Position numbers and translations under genes: made by a program
Part shown: piece by piece, positions 27,758 to 33,529 of the stretch
Numbering within the stretch: position 1 is the first letter of the stretch
Layout: every line of letters begins with the position of its first letter
Assembly: GCF_900156055.1 (NCBI RefSeq)
Contig: NZ_FTMQ01000001.1
Span: 434,001-498,000, forward strand
Source of the DNA: Rhizobium sp. RU33A
GTDB lineage: Bacteria > Pseudomonadota > Alphaproteobacteria > Rhizobiales > Rhizobiaceae
Direction: 5' to 3'
DNA length: 64,000 bases
Notes under the pieces: model-generated
Told to the model about the DNA's origin: nothing
What the model saw: only the letters and a program-made list of their open reading frames with translations
The model's database searches: none

Positions 27758-28471
27758 ATGGGCTCCACTCACATCTACTCGGCCTTCGACGAGGAACTGA
27801 AGTTCCTGATGCGCCGCATCTCCGAAATGGGCGGTCTTGCGGAACAGATGGTCGCCGAAAGCGTGCGCGCGTTGGTCAATTCCGACGCGGCGCTCGCGCA
27901 GAAGGTTATCTCCGACGACGTGCTCATGGATGCCATGGAGCGCGAGATCGGTGACAAGGCGATCGTCACCATCGCAAAACGCCAGCCGGTCGCCTCGGAT
28001 CTGCGCGAAATCATCGGCGCGCTGCGGATCGCTGCCGATCTCGAGCGCGTCGGTGATCTCGGCAAGAGCAACTCCAAGCGTGTCGTCGCCGTTCAGGCAA
28101 CAGGCGTGCCGCGCAAGCTCGCCCGTGGCCTGGAGCATCTGTCTGATCTGGCACTCGCCCAGCTCAAGGAAGTGCTCGACGTCTACACGACCCGTTCGGC
28201 TGAAAAGGCGAAGTCCATCCGTGACCGCGACGAGGAGATCGATGCGATCTACACGTCGCTGTTCCGCGAACTCCTCACCTACATGATGGAAGATCCGCGC
28301 AACATCACGAGCTGCACCCATCTCCTGTTCTGCGCCAAGAACATCGAGCGTATCGGCGACCACGCGACGAATATCGCCGAGACCATTTACTACATGACTA
28401 CCGGCGCCCAGCCGGAAGGCGAACGCCCGAAGGAAGACCTGACCTCTTCCGTTGGCGCGATCACCGAGTGA
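27758..28471 (+). CDS. phoU: Phosphate signalling complex protein PhoU
   Basis: A 237-residue all-helical cytosolic protein of two similar halves, with the metal-binding motifs EREIGDKAIVTIAKRQP and DEEIDAIYTSLFRELLTYM. PhoU connects Pst transport activity to inhibition of PhoR. The start MGSTHIYSAFDEEL was chosen at 27758 (AAGGAC upstream) as in known rhizobial PhoU. It sits between pstB and phoB in the operon. Confidence 0.96.
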   Translation: MGSTHIYSAFDEELKFLMRRISEMGGLAEQMVAESVRALVNSDAALAQKVISDDVLMDAMEREIGDKAIVTIAKRQPVASDLREIIGALRIAADLERVGDLGKSNSKRVVAVQATGVPRKLARGLEHLSDLALAQLKEVLDVYTTRSAEKAKSIRDRDEEIDAIYTSLFRELLTYMMEDPRNITSCTHLLFCAKNIERIGDHATNIAETIYYMTTGAQPEGERPKEDLTSSVGAITE

Positions 28472-28496
28472 TATTGTCCAGCGGGGTTGATGTTTG

Positions 28497-29180
28497 ATGC
28501 AGCCGAAAATTGCCGTGGTGGAAGACGAAGAGGCCCTTTCGGTCCTCCTGCGTTACAATCTCGAAGCCGAGGGCTATGAGGTCGAAACGATCCTGCGGGG
28601 CGACGAGGCCGAGATCCGCCTTCAGGAGCGTGTGCCGGATCTGCTGATCCTGGACTGGATGCTTCCGGGCGTCTCCGGCATCGAGCTGTGCCGGCGCCTG
28701 CGTGTCCGACCCGAGACCGAGCGTCTGCCGATCATCATGCTGACGGCGCGCGGTGAGGAAAGCGAGCGGGTGCGTGGCCTGGCCACGGGTGCGGACGATT
28801 ATGTCGTCAAACCCTTCTCGACGCCGGAGCTGATGGCCCGCGTCAAGGCCATGCTGCGTCGTGCCAAGCCCGAGGTTCTTTCCAGCGTCCTGCGCTGCGG
28901 CGACATCGAACTCGACCGCGAGACCCATCGGGTGCATCGCAAGAGCCGCGAGGTTCGCCTTGGTCCGACGGAATTCCGGCTGCTGGAGTTCCTCATGGCA
29001 TCGCCCGGCCGGGTCTACTCGCGGTCTCAGCTTTTGGACGGTGTCTGGGGTCACGATATCTATGTCGACGAGCGCACGGTCGACGTGCATGTCGGCCGCC
29101 TGCGTAAGGCGCTGAACTTCTCGAACATGCAGGATGTCATCCGCACCGTCCGCGGCGCGGGTTATTCCATGGAAGCCTGA
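28497..29180 (+). CDS. phoB: Phosphate regulon response regulator PhoB
   Basis: A 227-residue OmpR-family regulator. The receiver has VEDEEA, phosphoacceptor Asp53 (LILDWMLPGVSG) and Lys in YVVKPFS. The winged-helix DNA-binding domain ends VDVHVGRLRKALN and VRGAGYSMEA. It binds PhoB boxes such as the triple one at 22844 to activate pst and other genes. ATG at 28497 is favoured over a TTG one codon earlier. It closes the pst operon with a terminator after it. Confidence 0.95.
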   Translation: MQPKIAVVEDEEALSVLLRYNLEAEGYEVETILRGDEAEIRLQERVPDLLILDWMLPGVSGIELCRRLRVRPETERLPIIMLTARGEESERVRGLATGADDYVVKPFSTPELMARVKAMLRRAKPEVLSSVLRCGDIELDRETHRVHRKSREVRLGPTEFRLLEFLMASPGRVYSRSQLLDGVWGHDIYVDERTVDVHVGRLRKALNFSNMQDVIRTVRGAGYSMEA

Positions 29181-29198
29181 AGACGCCAGCTTTCGATT

Positions 29199-29238
29199 GA
29201 GGGGCCGCACGGATCATCCGCTGCGGCCCTCTTCGTTT
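29199..29238 (+). terminator. Terminator of the pst-phoB operon
   Basis: Stem GAGG(G)GCCGCA (29199-29209) pairs with TGCGGCCCTC (29222-29231) with one bulged G, followed by TTCGTTT. It is 18 bases after the phoB stop. Confidence 0.7.
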
Positions 29239-29250
29239 CAGCATAGCCCA

Positions 29251-29276
29251 AAAGAAAACGGGCCCCGAAGGACCCG
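29251..29276 (-). terminator. Terminator of gcrA
   Basis: Reading the minus strand, CGGGTCC (29276-29270) pairs with GGGCCCG (29266-29260), with one G-T pair and a short loop, followed by TTTTCTTTTG. It lies 26 bases after the gcrA stop and faces the phoB terminator. Confidence 0.8.
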
Positions 29277-29302
29277 CTAGATGTCTCGAACTCGCCGATG
29301 GA

Positions 29303-29848
29303 TCAGCGAGCAGCCTTGCGGCGTTCGCTGACCGGCTGGTAGGCGAGCTTCGCGTGATAGGTGCAGTAAGGCGCGCTATCAGCAATTTCGCAGCCGCAAA
29401 AGTGGAAATCATCCTTCATCGGATCGCCGATCGGCCACTTGCAGGTGCGCTCGGTCAGTTCCGTCAGGGCGAGGCGCCGCGAAATCGGCACGACCACGTT
29501 CAGTGGGCGGCGAACTTCGACTTCCTCGTAGGCCTCGACCTCGATCTCTTCCTTCAGCATTGTCGCGCCAGCTGCACGGGTCACGGTTCGCGTGGTCGCC
29601 GTCGCCGCAGGCCGGTTCTGGAAGGTCGCCGGACGCTGGGTCTGCGCCGGACGTTTTGCCGGGCGTGCCGCAGTCGAGCTGCCGCCTGCCTTGGCCCTGC
29701 CCGGCAGGTTGAGGCGGTGAACCTTGCCGATAACGGCATTTCGGCTCACGCCACCGAGTTGCGCCGCAATCTGGCTTGCGCTGAGGCCTTCGGCCCACAG
29801 TCGCTTCAGTCTTTCGACCCTGTCGTCACTCCATTGCGCAGTTGTCAT
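29303..29848 (-). CDS. gcrA: Cell cycle regulator GcrA
   Basis: A 181-residue protein. The N-terminal 50 residues (WSDDRVERLKRLWAEGLSAS, then VSRNAVIGKVHRLNLPGR) form the GcrA helix-turn-helix. A Pro/Ala/Arg linker (APRAKRPAQT type) leads to a C-terminal domain with two to three cysteines (CKWPIGDP, FCGCE, YCTYH) that binds sigma70. GcrA activates promoters methylated at GANTC by CcrM. GGAGAGAAG precedes the ATG. The intergenic region upstream contains eight GANTC sites, suggesting autoregulation. Confidence 0.92.
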   Translation of the reverse strand: MTTAQWSDDRVERLKRLWAEGLSASQIAAQLGGVSRNAVIGKVHRLNLPGRAKAGGSSTAARPAKRPAQTQRPATFQNRPAATATTRTVTRAAGATMLKEEIEVEAYEEVEVRRPLNVVVPISRRLALTELTERTCKWPIGDPMKDDFHFCGCEIADSAPYCTYHAKLAYQPVSERRKAAR

Positions 29849-29883
29849 GCCACTTCTCTCCGCCGCTCGCGTCTGTCATGGCA

Positions 29884-30147
29884 GAATCCGTCACCCCTGC
29901 TTCGAACGAATTCGAAACATAACCGCCTCGTTACTGTCGGTGAGCACTTCCGCCGCATGCAATCTATTAATGAAATTTAACCTAGTGGCACGCTGACTCC
30001 GTGACAAGAGTCGGGGGAATCATCTGGAATCGATTTTCCGGTTTTCCCCAACTTGCTTCCCGAGTGAGTCAAGTATGCAACAGGTGGAATCTAGCCGCGC
30101 ACGCTTCTGGCGCGAACCGGCCAAATCGGCGCCTACTCCTGCGATTC
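29884..30147. promoter_or_regulatory. Cluster of eight GANTC (CcrM) sites between gcrA and argD
   Basis: GANTC occurs at 29884, 29995, 30008, 30017, 30027, 30066, 30087 and 30143; six fall in the 97 bases 29995-30091. By base composition about one would be expected in 264 bases. The spacer also holds TTAA-N6-TTAACC at 29967, a near CtrA match, and no gene. It probably controls gcrA, argD or both by methylation. Confidence 0.7.
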
Positions 30148-30159
30148 CTGCGGAATTCG

Positions 30160-30188
30160 TTGACATTGCAGGGTGAAGTGCCGATAGT
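30160..30188 (+). promoter_or_regulatory. Promoter of argD
   Basis: TTGACA at 30160-30165 and GATAGT at 30183-30188 are separated by 17 bases. The expected start of transcription, about 30195, coincides with the beginning of the next hairpin. Confidence 0.55.
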
Positions 30189-30194
30189 GCCCGC

Positions 30195-30226
30195 GCCGCC
30201 GCAAGGCGGCATTTTTAATTTTTTCG
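30195..30226 (+). terminator. Intrinsic terminator in the argD leader
   Basis: GCCGCC (30195-30200), loop GCAA, GGCGGC (30205-30210), then ATTTTTAATTTTTT. A strong terminator lying 60 bases before argD, either an attenuator of argD or the end of a small upstream transcript. Confidence 0.75.
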
Positions 30227-30285
30227 AGGCCTGCAAAGGGCCGTGCCGTCCCTTGGACGGATCGTCGAGAAGGAACGTGAAAGCC

Positions 30286-31488
30286 ATGGCCGAAGCTACG
30301 CCGCTCTATCAGACCTATAATCGGGCGCCTCTGCGTTTCGAGCGAGGCGAGGGCGTCTGGCTCATGACGGAACGTGGTGAACGTTATCTCGATTTCGCAG
30401 CTGGCGTCGCCGTAACGTCGGTCGGCCATGGTCACCCCCATGTTGTCGGCGCCCTGAAGGAGCAGGCGGACAAGGTCTGGCATCTGTCGAACCTGTATGA
30501 GGTTCCGGGCCAGGAAGTGCTGGCCAAGCGCCTCGCCGATGTGACGTTCGCCGACCGCGTCTTCTTTACCAATTCCGGCGCCGAAGCTCTCGAATGCGCT
30601 ATCAAGACGGCGCGCCGCTATCACTTTGCCAAGGGGCACCCGGAGAAGTTCCACATCATCACGATGGAAGGCGCCTTCCACGGTCGCACCATCGCGACGA
30701 TCGCAGCGGGTGGTCAGGAGAAATATCTCGAAGGCTTCGGTCCCAAGGCCCCGGGTTTCGATCAGGTGCCGTTTGGTGATCTCGACGCCGTCAAGGCCGC
30801 GATAACGGATGCAACCGCTGCGATCCTTGTCGAGCCGGTGCAGGGCGAGGGCGGTATTCGTCCGATCCCGGTGGAGATGCTGCGCGCCTTGCGCGACCTC
30901 TGCGACGAGTACGGCCTGCTGTTGATCCTCGACGAAGTGCAGTGCGGTGTTGGCCGCACGGGCAAGCTTTTTGCCCATGAATGGGCCGGCATCACGCCCG
31001 ACCTCATGGCGGTCGCCAAGGGCATCGGCGGCGGTTTCCCGCTCGGCGCTTGCTTGGCAACCGAAGAGGCCGCTTACGGCATGAAACCCGGAACGCATGG
31101 CTCGACATATGGCGGCAACCCGCTTGGTATGGCCGTCGGCAATGCTGTTCTCGACGTCGTGCTCGGCGACGGTTTCCTCGACAATGTTCGCGACACAGCC
31201 CTCGTCTTCCGCCAGGGTCTCGCCTCGCTGAAGGATCGTTACCCGGATGTGATCGAGGAAGTGCGTGGCGAAGGCCTGATGCTCGGCATCAAGGCCAAGA
31301 TCCCGAACACCGAACTGCTGATGGCAATGCGCGACGAGCATCTGCTCGGCGTTCCCGCCGGCGACAACGTTATCCGTCTCCTGCCGCCGCTGACGGTGAC
31401 CGCGGAAGAAGCTCGCGACGGTCTCGCCCGTATCGAACGCGCCGCGGAGCACATCCGCGCCAAGGCCGCAGTCGCAGCATCCGCCTAA
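30286..31488 (+). CDS. argD: Acetylornithine aminotransferase
   Basis: A 400-residue class III PLP aminotransferase that makes acetylornithine from acetylglutamate semialdehyde in arginine synthesis. Motifs are [35 protein letters not shown] and the lysine motif [13 protein letters not shown], then [10 protein letters not shown]. The ATG at 30286 is chosen, since the open frame upstream is a non-coding extension that includes the terminator. argF follows by 14 bases, so the two form an operon with hslO further on. Confidence 0.94.
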
Positions 31489-31502
31489 GACAGGACCCAT
31501 TC

Positions 31503-32420
31503 ATGGCATCTCCGAAGCATTTTCTCGATCTCTCCGCCATGACGGCCGGGGACCTGCGCGGCATTCTTGAGGACGCGAAGACCCGCAAGCAGGCGACCAA
31601 GGCCGGCACCGCCGACAAGCCGCTCGCCGGCAAGATGCTGGCAATGATTTTTGAGAAGCCGTCCACCCGCACGCGTGTTTCCTTCGATGTCGGCATGCGG
31701 CAGCTAGGTGGCGAGACCCTCTTCCTGTCTGGCACGGAGATGCAGCTCGGTCGCGCTGAGACCATTGGCGACACCGCCAAGGTTCTGTCGCGCTATGTCG
31801 ATGCGATCATGATCCGAACCACTGACCATGCGCGTCTCATGGAGATGGCCGAGCATGCGACGGTTCCGGTCATCAATGCCCTGACGGATCTCACTCATCC
31901 CTGCCAGATTATGGCGGACATCATGACCATCGAGGAGCATCGTGGCTCCGTGGCGGGCAAGACGCTCGCCTGGACCGGCGACGGCAACAATGTCCTGCAT
32001 TCGCTCGTCGAAGGCGCGGCGCGCTTTGGTTACCGAATGAACATGGCCGTGCCGCTGGGCTCCGAGCCCGACGACAAGATCCTGAATTGGGCCCGCAACA
32101 ATGGCGGCGAGATCATGCTGTGCCACGATGCCGATCGTGCGGTCGCCGGCGTTGATGCGGTGATCACTGATACCTGGGTGTCGATGAACCAGGAGCACAA
32201 GGCACGTGGCCATAACGTCTTCCAGCCTTTCCAGGTCAATGCGGAGCTGATGAAGAAGGCGAAGGAGGAGGCCCTCTTCCTGCACTGCCTGCCGGCTCAT
32301 CGCGGCGAAGAAGTCACCGACGAGGTGATCGACGGCGCGCAGTCGGTGGTTTTCGACGAGGCCGAGAACCGCCTGCATGCGCAGAAGTCGATCCTCGCCT
32401 GGTGCCTCGGCGCGATCTGA
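31503..32420 (+). CDS. argF: Ornithine carbamoyltransferase
   Basis: A 305-residue cytosolic enzyme forming citrulline from ornithine and carbamoyl phosphate. Carbamoyl phosphate site [19 protein letters not shown], and the ornithine motif [11 protein letters not shown] are complete. The ATG at 31503 follows AGGACCC. It is 14 bases behind argD, so expression is coupled to the argD leader. Confidence 0.96.
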
Positions 32421-32539
32421 GGCAGGGCAAGGGTGTTCGCGCCCGACTTGACCTTTGGCGCGGGTGATCCCATCTGTGCCGTTTCTGATCGGGCCGCTCG
32501 GGCCCAGCGTTTGGCGCTTCAAGCGCCGGGAGTACATTC

Positions 32540-33529
32540 ATGTCGATGAGACAAGCAGAACTCGGCGAATTCGGTTTCGCCGGTGACGATCGCGTGGTTC
32601 CCTTCCAGGTAGAGGGCCTCGATGTGCGCGGCCGTGCCGTCCAGCTCGGACCGTTGATCAATTCCATTCTCGACCGTCACGCCTATCCGGCGCCAGTCGC
32701 GCGGCTTCTCGCGGAAGCCATCGTCTTGACGGTGCTGATCGGGACGTCTCTGAAGTTCGAGGGCAAGTTTACGGTCCAGACCAAGGGCGACGGCCCGGTC
32801 GATCTGCTGGTTGCCGATTTCAGCTCGCCTGAAAATGTGCGCGCCTATGCCCGCTTTGACGAGCAGGCGGTGGCCGATGCAATCGCTGCCGGTCGTGCTT
32901 CGCCTGAGGAGCTGCTCGGCGTGGGCGTGCTCGCCTTCACCATCGACCAGGGATCCTTCATGCAGCCCTATCAGGGGATCGTGCCGCTCGACGGCACGTC
33001 GCTCGAGGACATCGCAGGTGTCTATTTCCGCCAGTCGGAACAGATCCCGACGCGCGTCCGCCTTGGGGCCGCCGAGCTCTTTGATCGGGATGCCGACGGC
33101 AAACCGCGTCGCACATGGCGGGCAGGTGGTCTCATCGCGCAATTCCTGCCGGAGGCGCCGGAGCGGATGCGCCAGCCGGATCTGCATGGCGGCGATGGCG
33201 ACGACCGCGATGCCGACCTACACGGCGACGATGCCTGGGATGAGGCCCGCGTGCTGGTCGAGACGATCGATGCCGATGAGCTGACCGATCCGCAGGTGGG
33301 TATCGAACGGCTGCTGTTCCGCCTCTTCCACGAGCGGGGTGTGCGGGCTTACGAACCGCAGGCGGTTTACGACCGCTGCAGTTGCTCGCGCGACCGCCTG
33401 AAGGGTGTTCTCCAGGGCTTCTCTGCTGAGGAGATCGAGGCGAGCACCGAAGACGGCAAGATTACCGTGACCTGCGAATTCTGCTCGACCAATTATGATT
33501 TCGAGCCGGGAGAGCTGACGCCGGCTTGA
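32540..33529 (+). CDS. hslO: Redox-regulated chaperone Hsp33
   Basis: A 329-residue cytosolic holdase chaperone. The N-terminal domain is FQVEGLDVRGRAVQLG onward; the C-terminal zinc switch has CSCS and CEFC about 30 residues apart, a full four-cysteine set. Under oxidation the cysteines form disulfides and the protein binds unfolded clients. CCGGGAGTA precedes the ATG. It follows argF by 119 bases and ends with its own terminator. Confidence 0.94.
   Translation: MSMRQAELGEFGFAGDDRVVPFQVEGLDVRGRAVQLGPLINSILDRHAYPAPVARLLAEAIVLTVLIGTSLKFEGKFTVQTKGDGPVDLLVADFSSPENVRAYARFDEQAVADAIAAGRASPEELLGVGVLAFTIDQGSFMQPYQGIVPLDGTSLEDIAGVYFRQSEQIPTRVRLGAAELFDRDADGKPRRTWRAGGLIAQFLPEAPERMRQPDLHGGDGDDRDADLHGDDAWDEARVLVETIDADELTDPQVGIERLLFRLFHERGVRAYEPQAVYDRCSCSRDRLKGVLQGFSAEEIEASTEDGKITVTCEFCSTNYDFEPGELTPA

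Follow-up and report, generated by a model that had tools for sequence, protein, structure and literature searches.

The GANTC array between gcrA and argD in Rhizobium sp. RU33A is a strongly non-random and deeply conserved gcrA promoter, the counterpart of the methylation-repressed gcrA promoter published for A. tumefaciens (PMC11514494). From its sequence and by analogy with that promoter, the array probably renders gcrA responsive to methylation, in that full methylation would lower promoter use and the passage of the replication fork, by leaving the sites hemimethylated, would release it. The array as such had already been described: contrary to the earlier note on this DNA, which knew of no such report, six GANTC sites in the 250 bp before A. 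tumefaciens gcrA, a strong over-representation, were reported in 2024 (PMC11514494). The new part is the map of the sites and the geometry that is fixed across the order, of which we found no description in the main texts of the open-licence literature.

Density and layout of the sites

In the window, that is, the whole 64,000-nt stretch analyzed here, GANTC sites start on the plus strand at 29884, 29995, 30008, 30017, 30027, 30066, 30087 and 30143. The earlier count of eight sites in 264 bp, six of them in 97 bp (29995-30091), was correct at every place. Its estimate that about one would be expected was right in placing the cluster above chance but understated the excess, as the genome-based expectation is 0.28-0.36 per 264 bp. 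The 64-kb window contains 56 GANTC sites versus 363 ± 17 in dinucleotide shuffles, so that the cluster stands on a background that is depleted about 6.5-fold. Within 439 bp around the spacer, GANTC was observed 8 times versus 0.47 expected, the top ratio among the 16 XYNY′X′ pentamers.

We also counted sites in a genome sample consisting of the window and 20 further stretches of its contig (394 kb). These 458 kb, about 9% of the 4.85-Mb genome, contained 489 GANTC sites, or one per 937 bp. The array is the densest cluster of this sample, with 6 sites in 100 bp and 8 in 264 bp; a sliding count gave at most 4 elsewhere, whether per 100 bp or per 264 bp, and the suspicion that such a density might lie within the background distribution was thus not borne out in this part of the genome. 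The DNA called non-coding by a crude ORF model has one GANTC per 725 bp (0.36 per 264 bp), and at this rate the probability of at least eight sites in 264 bp is about 6e-9 for one chosen stretch, uncorrected for the number of stretches. As spurious ORFs run across the gcrA-argD spacer, this model places seven of the eight array sites in coding DNA; the non-coding background is therefore rough, yet it is not raised by the array. The second densest cluster per 100 bp in the sample, four GANTC in 64 bp (L202 17656-17719; G000:C12, around 317.7 kb), sits in a 338-bp gap between predicted ORFs. In the 394-kb part of the sample outside the window, TTGN5-GANTC alone had 11 matches and GANTC-TTGN5-GANTC none. 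An Rfam scan of 28400-32600 with E up to 1 gave no RNA family match in the gcrA-argD spacer, the sole match in this range (20 bits vs a cut-off of 82) being located at 31999-32167 inside an ORF downstream of argD.

The gcrA-argD spacer spans 29849-30285, and its features and flanking genes are as follows.

29303..29848, minus strand: gcrA CDS, 181 aa (PF07750, E 1.4e-57), with the ATG at 29848
29884..29888, minus strand: 5′UTR GANTC (GATTC on the gcrA strand), about +85 from the predicted start; family 133/136, order 26/28
29972, minus strand: predicted transcription start, placed 7 bp past the −10 element, with a 124-nt 5′UTR
29979..29984, minus strand: predicted −10 element TAGGTT; TANNNT lies 17-18 bp from the −35 in 135/158 rows
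29995..29999, minus strand: spacer GANTC between −35 and −10 (GAGTC on the gcrA strand, −27 to −23); family 134/136, order 23/28
30002..30007, minus strand: predicted −35 element TTGTCA; of the 158 rows (out of 168) with TTGN5GANTC, 142 have TTGTCA or TTGCCA here
30008..30012, minus strand: GANTC abutting the −35 (GACTC on the gcrA strand, −40 to −36); family 129/136, pair in the order 15/28
30017..30021, minus strand: upstream GANTC, −49 to −45; 91/136 distinct loci
30027..30031, minus strand: upstream GANTC, −59 to −55; 86/136 distinct loci
30043..30050, minus strand: conserved element TGGGGAAA; 135/136 family and 17/28 order-level loci
30066..30070, minus strand: lineage GANTC; 36/136 distinct loci
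30087..30091, minus strand: narrowly kept GANTC; 10/136 distinct loci
30143..30147, no strand assigned: GANTC nearest argD, present in the window and beyond the aligned 270 bp
30286..31488, plus strand: argD CDS, divergent neighbour (PF00202, E 4.4e-119, aminotransferase class III)

By inspection, TTGTCA and TAGGTT, 17 bp apart, constitute a predicted sigma-70 type gcrA promoter. On the gcrA strand the order is GATTC-N5-GATTC-N4-GACTC-TTGTCA-CG-GAGTC-N10-TAGGTT, and the 5′ ends of the core sites fall at −59, −49, −40, −27 and +85 relative to the predicted start. Two sites are thus on the predicted promoter itself, one in its spacer and one abutting its −35, and the 13-bp pitch of this pair corresponds to about 1.2 helical turns. 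Seven GANTC lie between 29849 and 30098, in line with the six or so in the 250 bp before A. tumefaciens gcrA. The S. meliloti gcrA start at −122 from the AUG (PMC4414408) agrees with the predicted 124-nt leader, which supports the predicted position of the promoter. A simple consensus promoter scan did not list the gcrA promoter because TAGGTT matches TATAAT at 3 of 6 positions and the scan threshold is 4. Conservation of the 5′UTR GANTC, which falls about 85 nt into the predicted gcrA leader, matches that of the promoter sites (133/136, 26/28).

Conservation in the family, the order and the class

We compared 168 gcrA upstream regions, namely the window, 139 loci from genus, family and named-genome searches, and 28 order-level loci (L140-L167, of which L140 belongs to the same family as the window). 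From the 89 distinct matching genomes of the genus and family searches the best 59 loci were taken, the named loci were the best 80 of at least 584 confirmed, and the order search contributed the best 28 new loci from 80 genomes; as best matches were taken first, the locus sets lean towards closer relatives. For the family, L001 (the window's own genome) and identical 270-bp spacers were dropped to leave 136 distinct loci, whereas counts over 168 and 158 rows keep L001, so that the own genome stands twice there. Some species are represented twice with near-identical DNA. The class-level set comprises L168-L196, among which L178, L189 and L196 have no GcrA start and L173 has only 48 bp upstream. 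Some genomes (G007, G010, G044, G129 and others) contain a second, weaker GcrA-like match.

The core sites are kept among relatives, so that the lack of conservation which the earlier note had named as a refuting outcome was not seen. Of the 136 family loci, 134 have GANTC at the spacer position, 129 next to the −35 and 133 in the 5′UTR, and the next two upstream sites are found in 91 and 86. The central bases of the first three are fixed, as GAGTC in 134/134, GACTC in 129/129 and GATTC in 133/133, respectively, indicating that something beyond GANTC is also selected within the family. At the order level, the spacer site is GANTC in 23/28 loci (GAGTC 15, GATTC 6, GACTC 2), the 5′UTR site in 26/28 (GATTC 21, GAGTC 3, GAATC 2) and the −35-abutting site in 15/28 (GACTC 13, GAGTC 1, GAATC 1), with GANTC-TTGN5-GANTC in 15/28. 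The central base of the order-level spacer and 5′UTR sites thus drifts while GANTC stays, as selection on GANTC predicts. In a descriptive count, which was made without a tree and is thus not corrected for relatedness, N was other than G in 8 of the 23 retained spacer sites, and a GANTC-breaking single change that keeps the central G was seen once.

Over 167 loci, GANTC density in the 270 bp before gcrA was 5.04 versus 0.30 in the rest of the same loci; this 16.6-fold enrichment is the highest of 16 like pentamers, followed by TANTA at 5.3-fold. The spacer site is located 144-166 bp before the gcrA ATG in 140/158 rows. The 400 bp before gcrA contain six sites in A. larrymoorei (L082) and five in A. 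vitis (L109). Sites have also disappeared: the spacer site is missing in 2/136 family loci and 5/28 order-level loci, the pair around TTG is missing in 13/28 order-level loci, and the 270-bp region ahead of gcrA is free of GANTC in L113 (Pseudochrobactrum), which suggests that a methylation switch can be diminished or lost altogether. The spacer site is absent from L103, and the 5′UTR site from the Bartonella loci L129 and L130. Per 400 bp before gcrA, there are about 1.4 GANTC in 25 loci outside the order versus 4.5 in the 28 order-level loci, with L179 (4 GANTC) and L192 (5 GANTC) as class-level exceptions. The array characterizes the order rather than the class, being mostly absent from loci outside the order. 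Chance as the origin of the array was ruled out by density and conservation together.

The element TGGGGAAA lies 51-52 bp upstream of the spacer GANTC in 136 of the 146 loci that have both. Canonical DnaA boxes are TGTGGANAA or TTNTCCACA. Since none was present in the 330 bp before gcrA in 136 family and 28 order-level loci, we do not call TGGGGAAA a DnaA box.

Probable methylation response and alternative explanations

A. tumefaciens provides the closest experimental precedent. There, PG-lacZ was less active when methylated, both in A. tumefaciens and in E. coli, and gcrA mRNA was lower upon ccrM overexpression; the authors regarded the effect in E. coli as independent of alphaproteobacterial regulators and proposed that gcrA is released by hemimethylation after firing of ori1 (PMC11514494). 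Mutation of single gcrA-promoter sites is not among the A. tumefaciens results in the excerpted text of that report (PMC11514494). The RU33A array resembles PG in that it belongs to the same gene within the same order and forms a GANTC cluster upstream of it (6 per 250 bp there, 7 per 250 bp here), and the Agrobacterium loci L082 and L109 share its core sites. Beyond the excerpts of that report, the present analysis adds the promoter elements, the conservation of each site and the order-wide geometry, while the methylation effect itself is carried over to RU33A by analogy.

The enzyme for such a response appears to be in place, as the own genome has one RAMA match over the cut-off, a 376-aa ORF with DPPY, which is a methyltransferase of CcrM type. 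CcrM would methylate both strands at the end of the cell cycle and in G1, and RNA polymerase with sigma-70 would then use the gcrA promoter less. Once the replication fork had passed, the GANTC sites would stay hemimethylated until CcrM returned, and the hemimethylated sites would release gcrA; for this last step we adopt the proposal made for A. tumefaciens. The array thus looks like a sensor of replication fork passage. We infer that the GANTC pair in the spacer and against the −35 is the working part of the switch; the additional sites upstream may work via a different factor.

What reads the methylation is the point on which explanations diverge. The earlier note had suggested methylation-timed autoregulation of gcrA, and its timing part is strengthened by the promoter position, the conservation and the A. 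tumefaciens data, whereas the part in which GcrA reads its own promoter is weakened. By that account GcrA would bind methylated GANTC in its own promoter and activate or repress via sigma-70. Indeed, full methylation of a GANTC probe improves its binding by the GcrA orthologs of S. meliloti and B. abortus (PMC3667746), GANTC is enriched 4.4- and 4.7-fold in the ChIP peaks of B. abortus GcrA (PMC6813329), and one site of the array sits within the −35/−10 spacer. However, the extended GcrA motif YGAKTCK, a Caulobacter motif as quoted in PMC8725594 that may differ between species, was matched on either strand by 0/8 sites of the window, 2/133 spacer sites of the family and 4/22 of the order, where we reason that random flanks would give one in four; over all GANTC in the 270 bp it was matched by 113/714 in the family and 13/111 in the order. 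The A. tumefaciens effect also occurs in E. coli (PMC11514494), and we consider GcrA autoregulation unlikely. Given the effect in E. coli and the lack of fit to the GcrA motif, the simplest reading is that methyl groups in and beside the −35 would disturb sigma-70 directly, and RNA polymerase itself would be the reader. The site pair also forms a GACTC-N8-GAGTC dyad around the −35, an inverted repeat with central bases fixed in 129/136 and 134/136 loci, which might be the binding site of another protein, a repressor or activator; CcrM methylation would then be secondary, or blocked by the dyad-binding protein in the way that MucR protects certain promoter GANTC sites of Caulobacter and S. meliloti (PMC5172544). 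Yet the symmetry is often broken at the order level (GACTC with GATTC or GACTC) while GANTC is kept, the upstream and 5′UTR sites are outside the dyad, and the methylation effect in E. coli needs no dyad-binding protein. Both versions of this explanation, with methylation secondary or blocked, seem to us quite improbable.

The array could also belong to something other than gcrA. The gene argD is the divergent neighbour of gcrA in 164 of the 168 rows, so synteny alone hardly separates the two genes, and a promoter-like TTGACA-17-GATAGT (30160-30188) faces argD beyond the array. But the two argD-side sites are poorly kept (36/136 and 10/136), and the distance to argD is variable (319-1186 bp), unlike that from the spacer site to the gcrA ATG. 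Moreover, the four of 168 loci in which no argD was found within 1.5 kb retain 4-6 GANTC sites. The suggestion in the earlier note that the array controls argD is not supported by these observations, and it is very unlikely that the array serves argD or both divergent genes. That note had also considered a replication or segregation site. A replication, segregation or nucleoid site located here by coincidence has only the density of GANTC to speak for it; the geometry of the sites follows the predicted gcrA promoter across the order, and the 128-bp core matched only itself in the own genome. We give this idea almost no credence. Past the argD promoter-like sequence, and likewise beyond the array, a terminator-like hairpin with a T run (30195-30210) would fall at the 5′ end of the argD mRNA; the scan gives as many such sites in shuffled sequence.

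The methylation-responsive gcrA promoter that we favor has relatives among the targets of CcrM. Like Caulobacter ctrA P1, it would be the promoter of a master regulator that needs hemimethylation, hence fork passage, for activity (PMC8116508), but ctrA P1 has one upstream GANTC and GcrA as the reader, whereas five core sites with no fit to the extended motif are present here. Caulobacter ftsZ and mipZ likewise carry GANTC at promoters of CcrM-controlled cell-cycle genes (PMC3708114, PMC3667746); methylation activates there, in contrast to the A. tumefaciens gcrA counterpart, which is repressed. GANTC is also found at the hypomethylated promoters occluded by MucR, with one to four sites in Caulobacter and cases in S. 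meliloti (PMC5172544). A survey from 2010 gave counts of GANTC ahead of cell-cycle genes, and a study of Ensifer methylomes listed cell-cycle genes with GANTC at most 125 bp from the transcript, the gcrA promoter not being singled out in the excerpts of that report (PMC8725594). Other inputs to gcrA have been described in S. meliloti, where a CtrA motif lies over the gcrA start (PMC3616915) and NtrX represses gcrA (PMC9223101).

NrdR-like boxes and implications for the order

Most order-level loci contain a palindrome of the ACGACATCTCGT type downstream of the predicted start. In 26/28 loci it fits C.A.AT.T.G, the core of the NrdR box. This core occurs within 300 bp upstream of gcrA in 26/28 order-level, 16/26 class-level and 45/136 family loci, and the best of 179 other permuted cores was found in 6/28 order-level loci. 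Upstream of gcrA in the window there was none, and among L001-L030 it was found in 1/30; because of its absence from the window we record the NrdR-like box as a side lead. Boxes were located at −153 in L141, at −74 and −43 in L169, and at −102 and −71 in L191, the latter two loci thus having two full cores 31 bp apart. In the order and class sets, a second half-box gives its strongest signal 31 bp upstream; in the family set the peak is 31 bp downstream, with the upstream offset near the mean. Paired NrdR boxes of 16 bp are separated by 15 bp (PMC12176259), which gives the same 31-bp offset, but the position 31 bp upstream overlaps the −10 region, so that part of the half-box signal may stem from the −10.

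Similar boxes were present upstream of nrdJ in the loci scanned, several of them paired 31 bp apart. The own genome has an NrdR-box-like pair 31 bp apart upstream of nrdJ (L244, 963 and 994 in nrdJ orientation), and it also has nrdR. A large regulon study that included NrdR does not mention gcrA in its main text (PMC5343134), and among the literature matches listed for NrdR and GcrA, one paper named both, and it concerns Acinetobacter. The distribution of the boxes suggests NrdR control of gcrA in many alphaproteobacteria.

Taken together, the gcrA promoter might across the order be a sensor of replication progress that is read by RNA polymerase and receives an additional input through NrdR-like boxes in many loci, a combined proposal that we put forward tentatively and with more doubt than confidence. 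CcrM sites would sit in its spacer and also, at a fixed 13-bp pitch, against the −35 in the family and in about half of the order-level loci, and the methylation state would gate sigma-70 without a dedicated reader. With an NrdR-like box in 42/54 order- and class-level loci, often with a half-box 31 bp away, fork passage would be integrated with a dNTP signal. In the Rhizobiaceae around the window, the NrdR-like box would have been lost and the methylation array would have grown.

Should the geometry be functional, a single promoter would explain the order-wide tie of the GcrA pulse to replication, and this promoter is small enough to be tested by a few point mutations. With the sites mapped, predictions at the level of single sites can be derived for any rhizobium from what was reported for A. 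tumefaciens in 2024. The NrdR lead, for its part, would link nucleotide supply to a master cell-cycle regulator.
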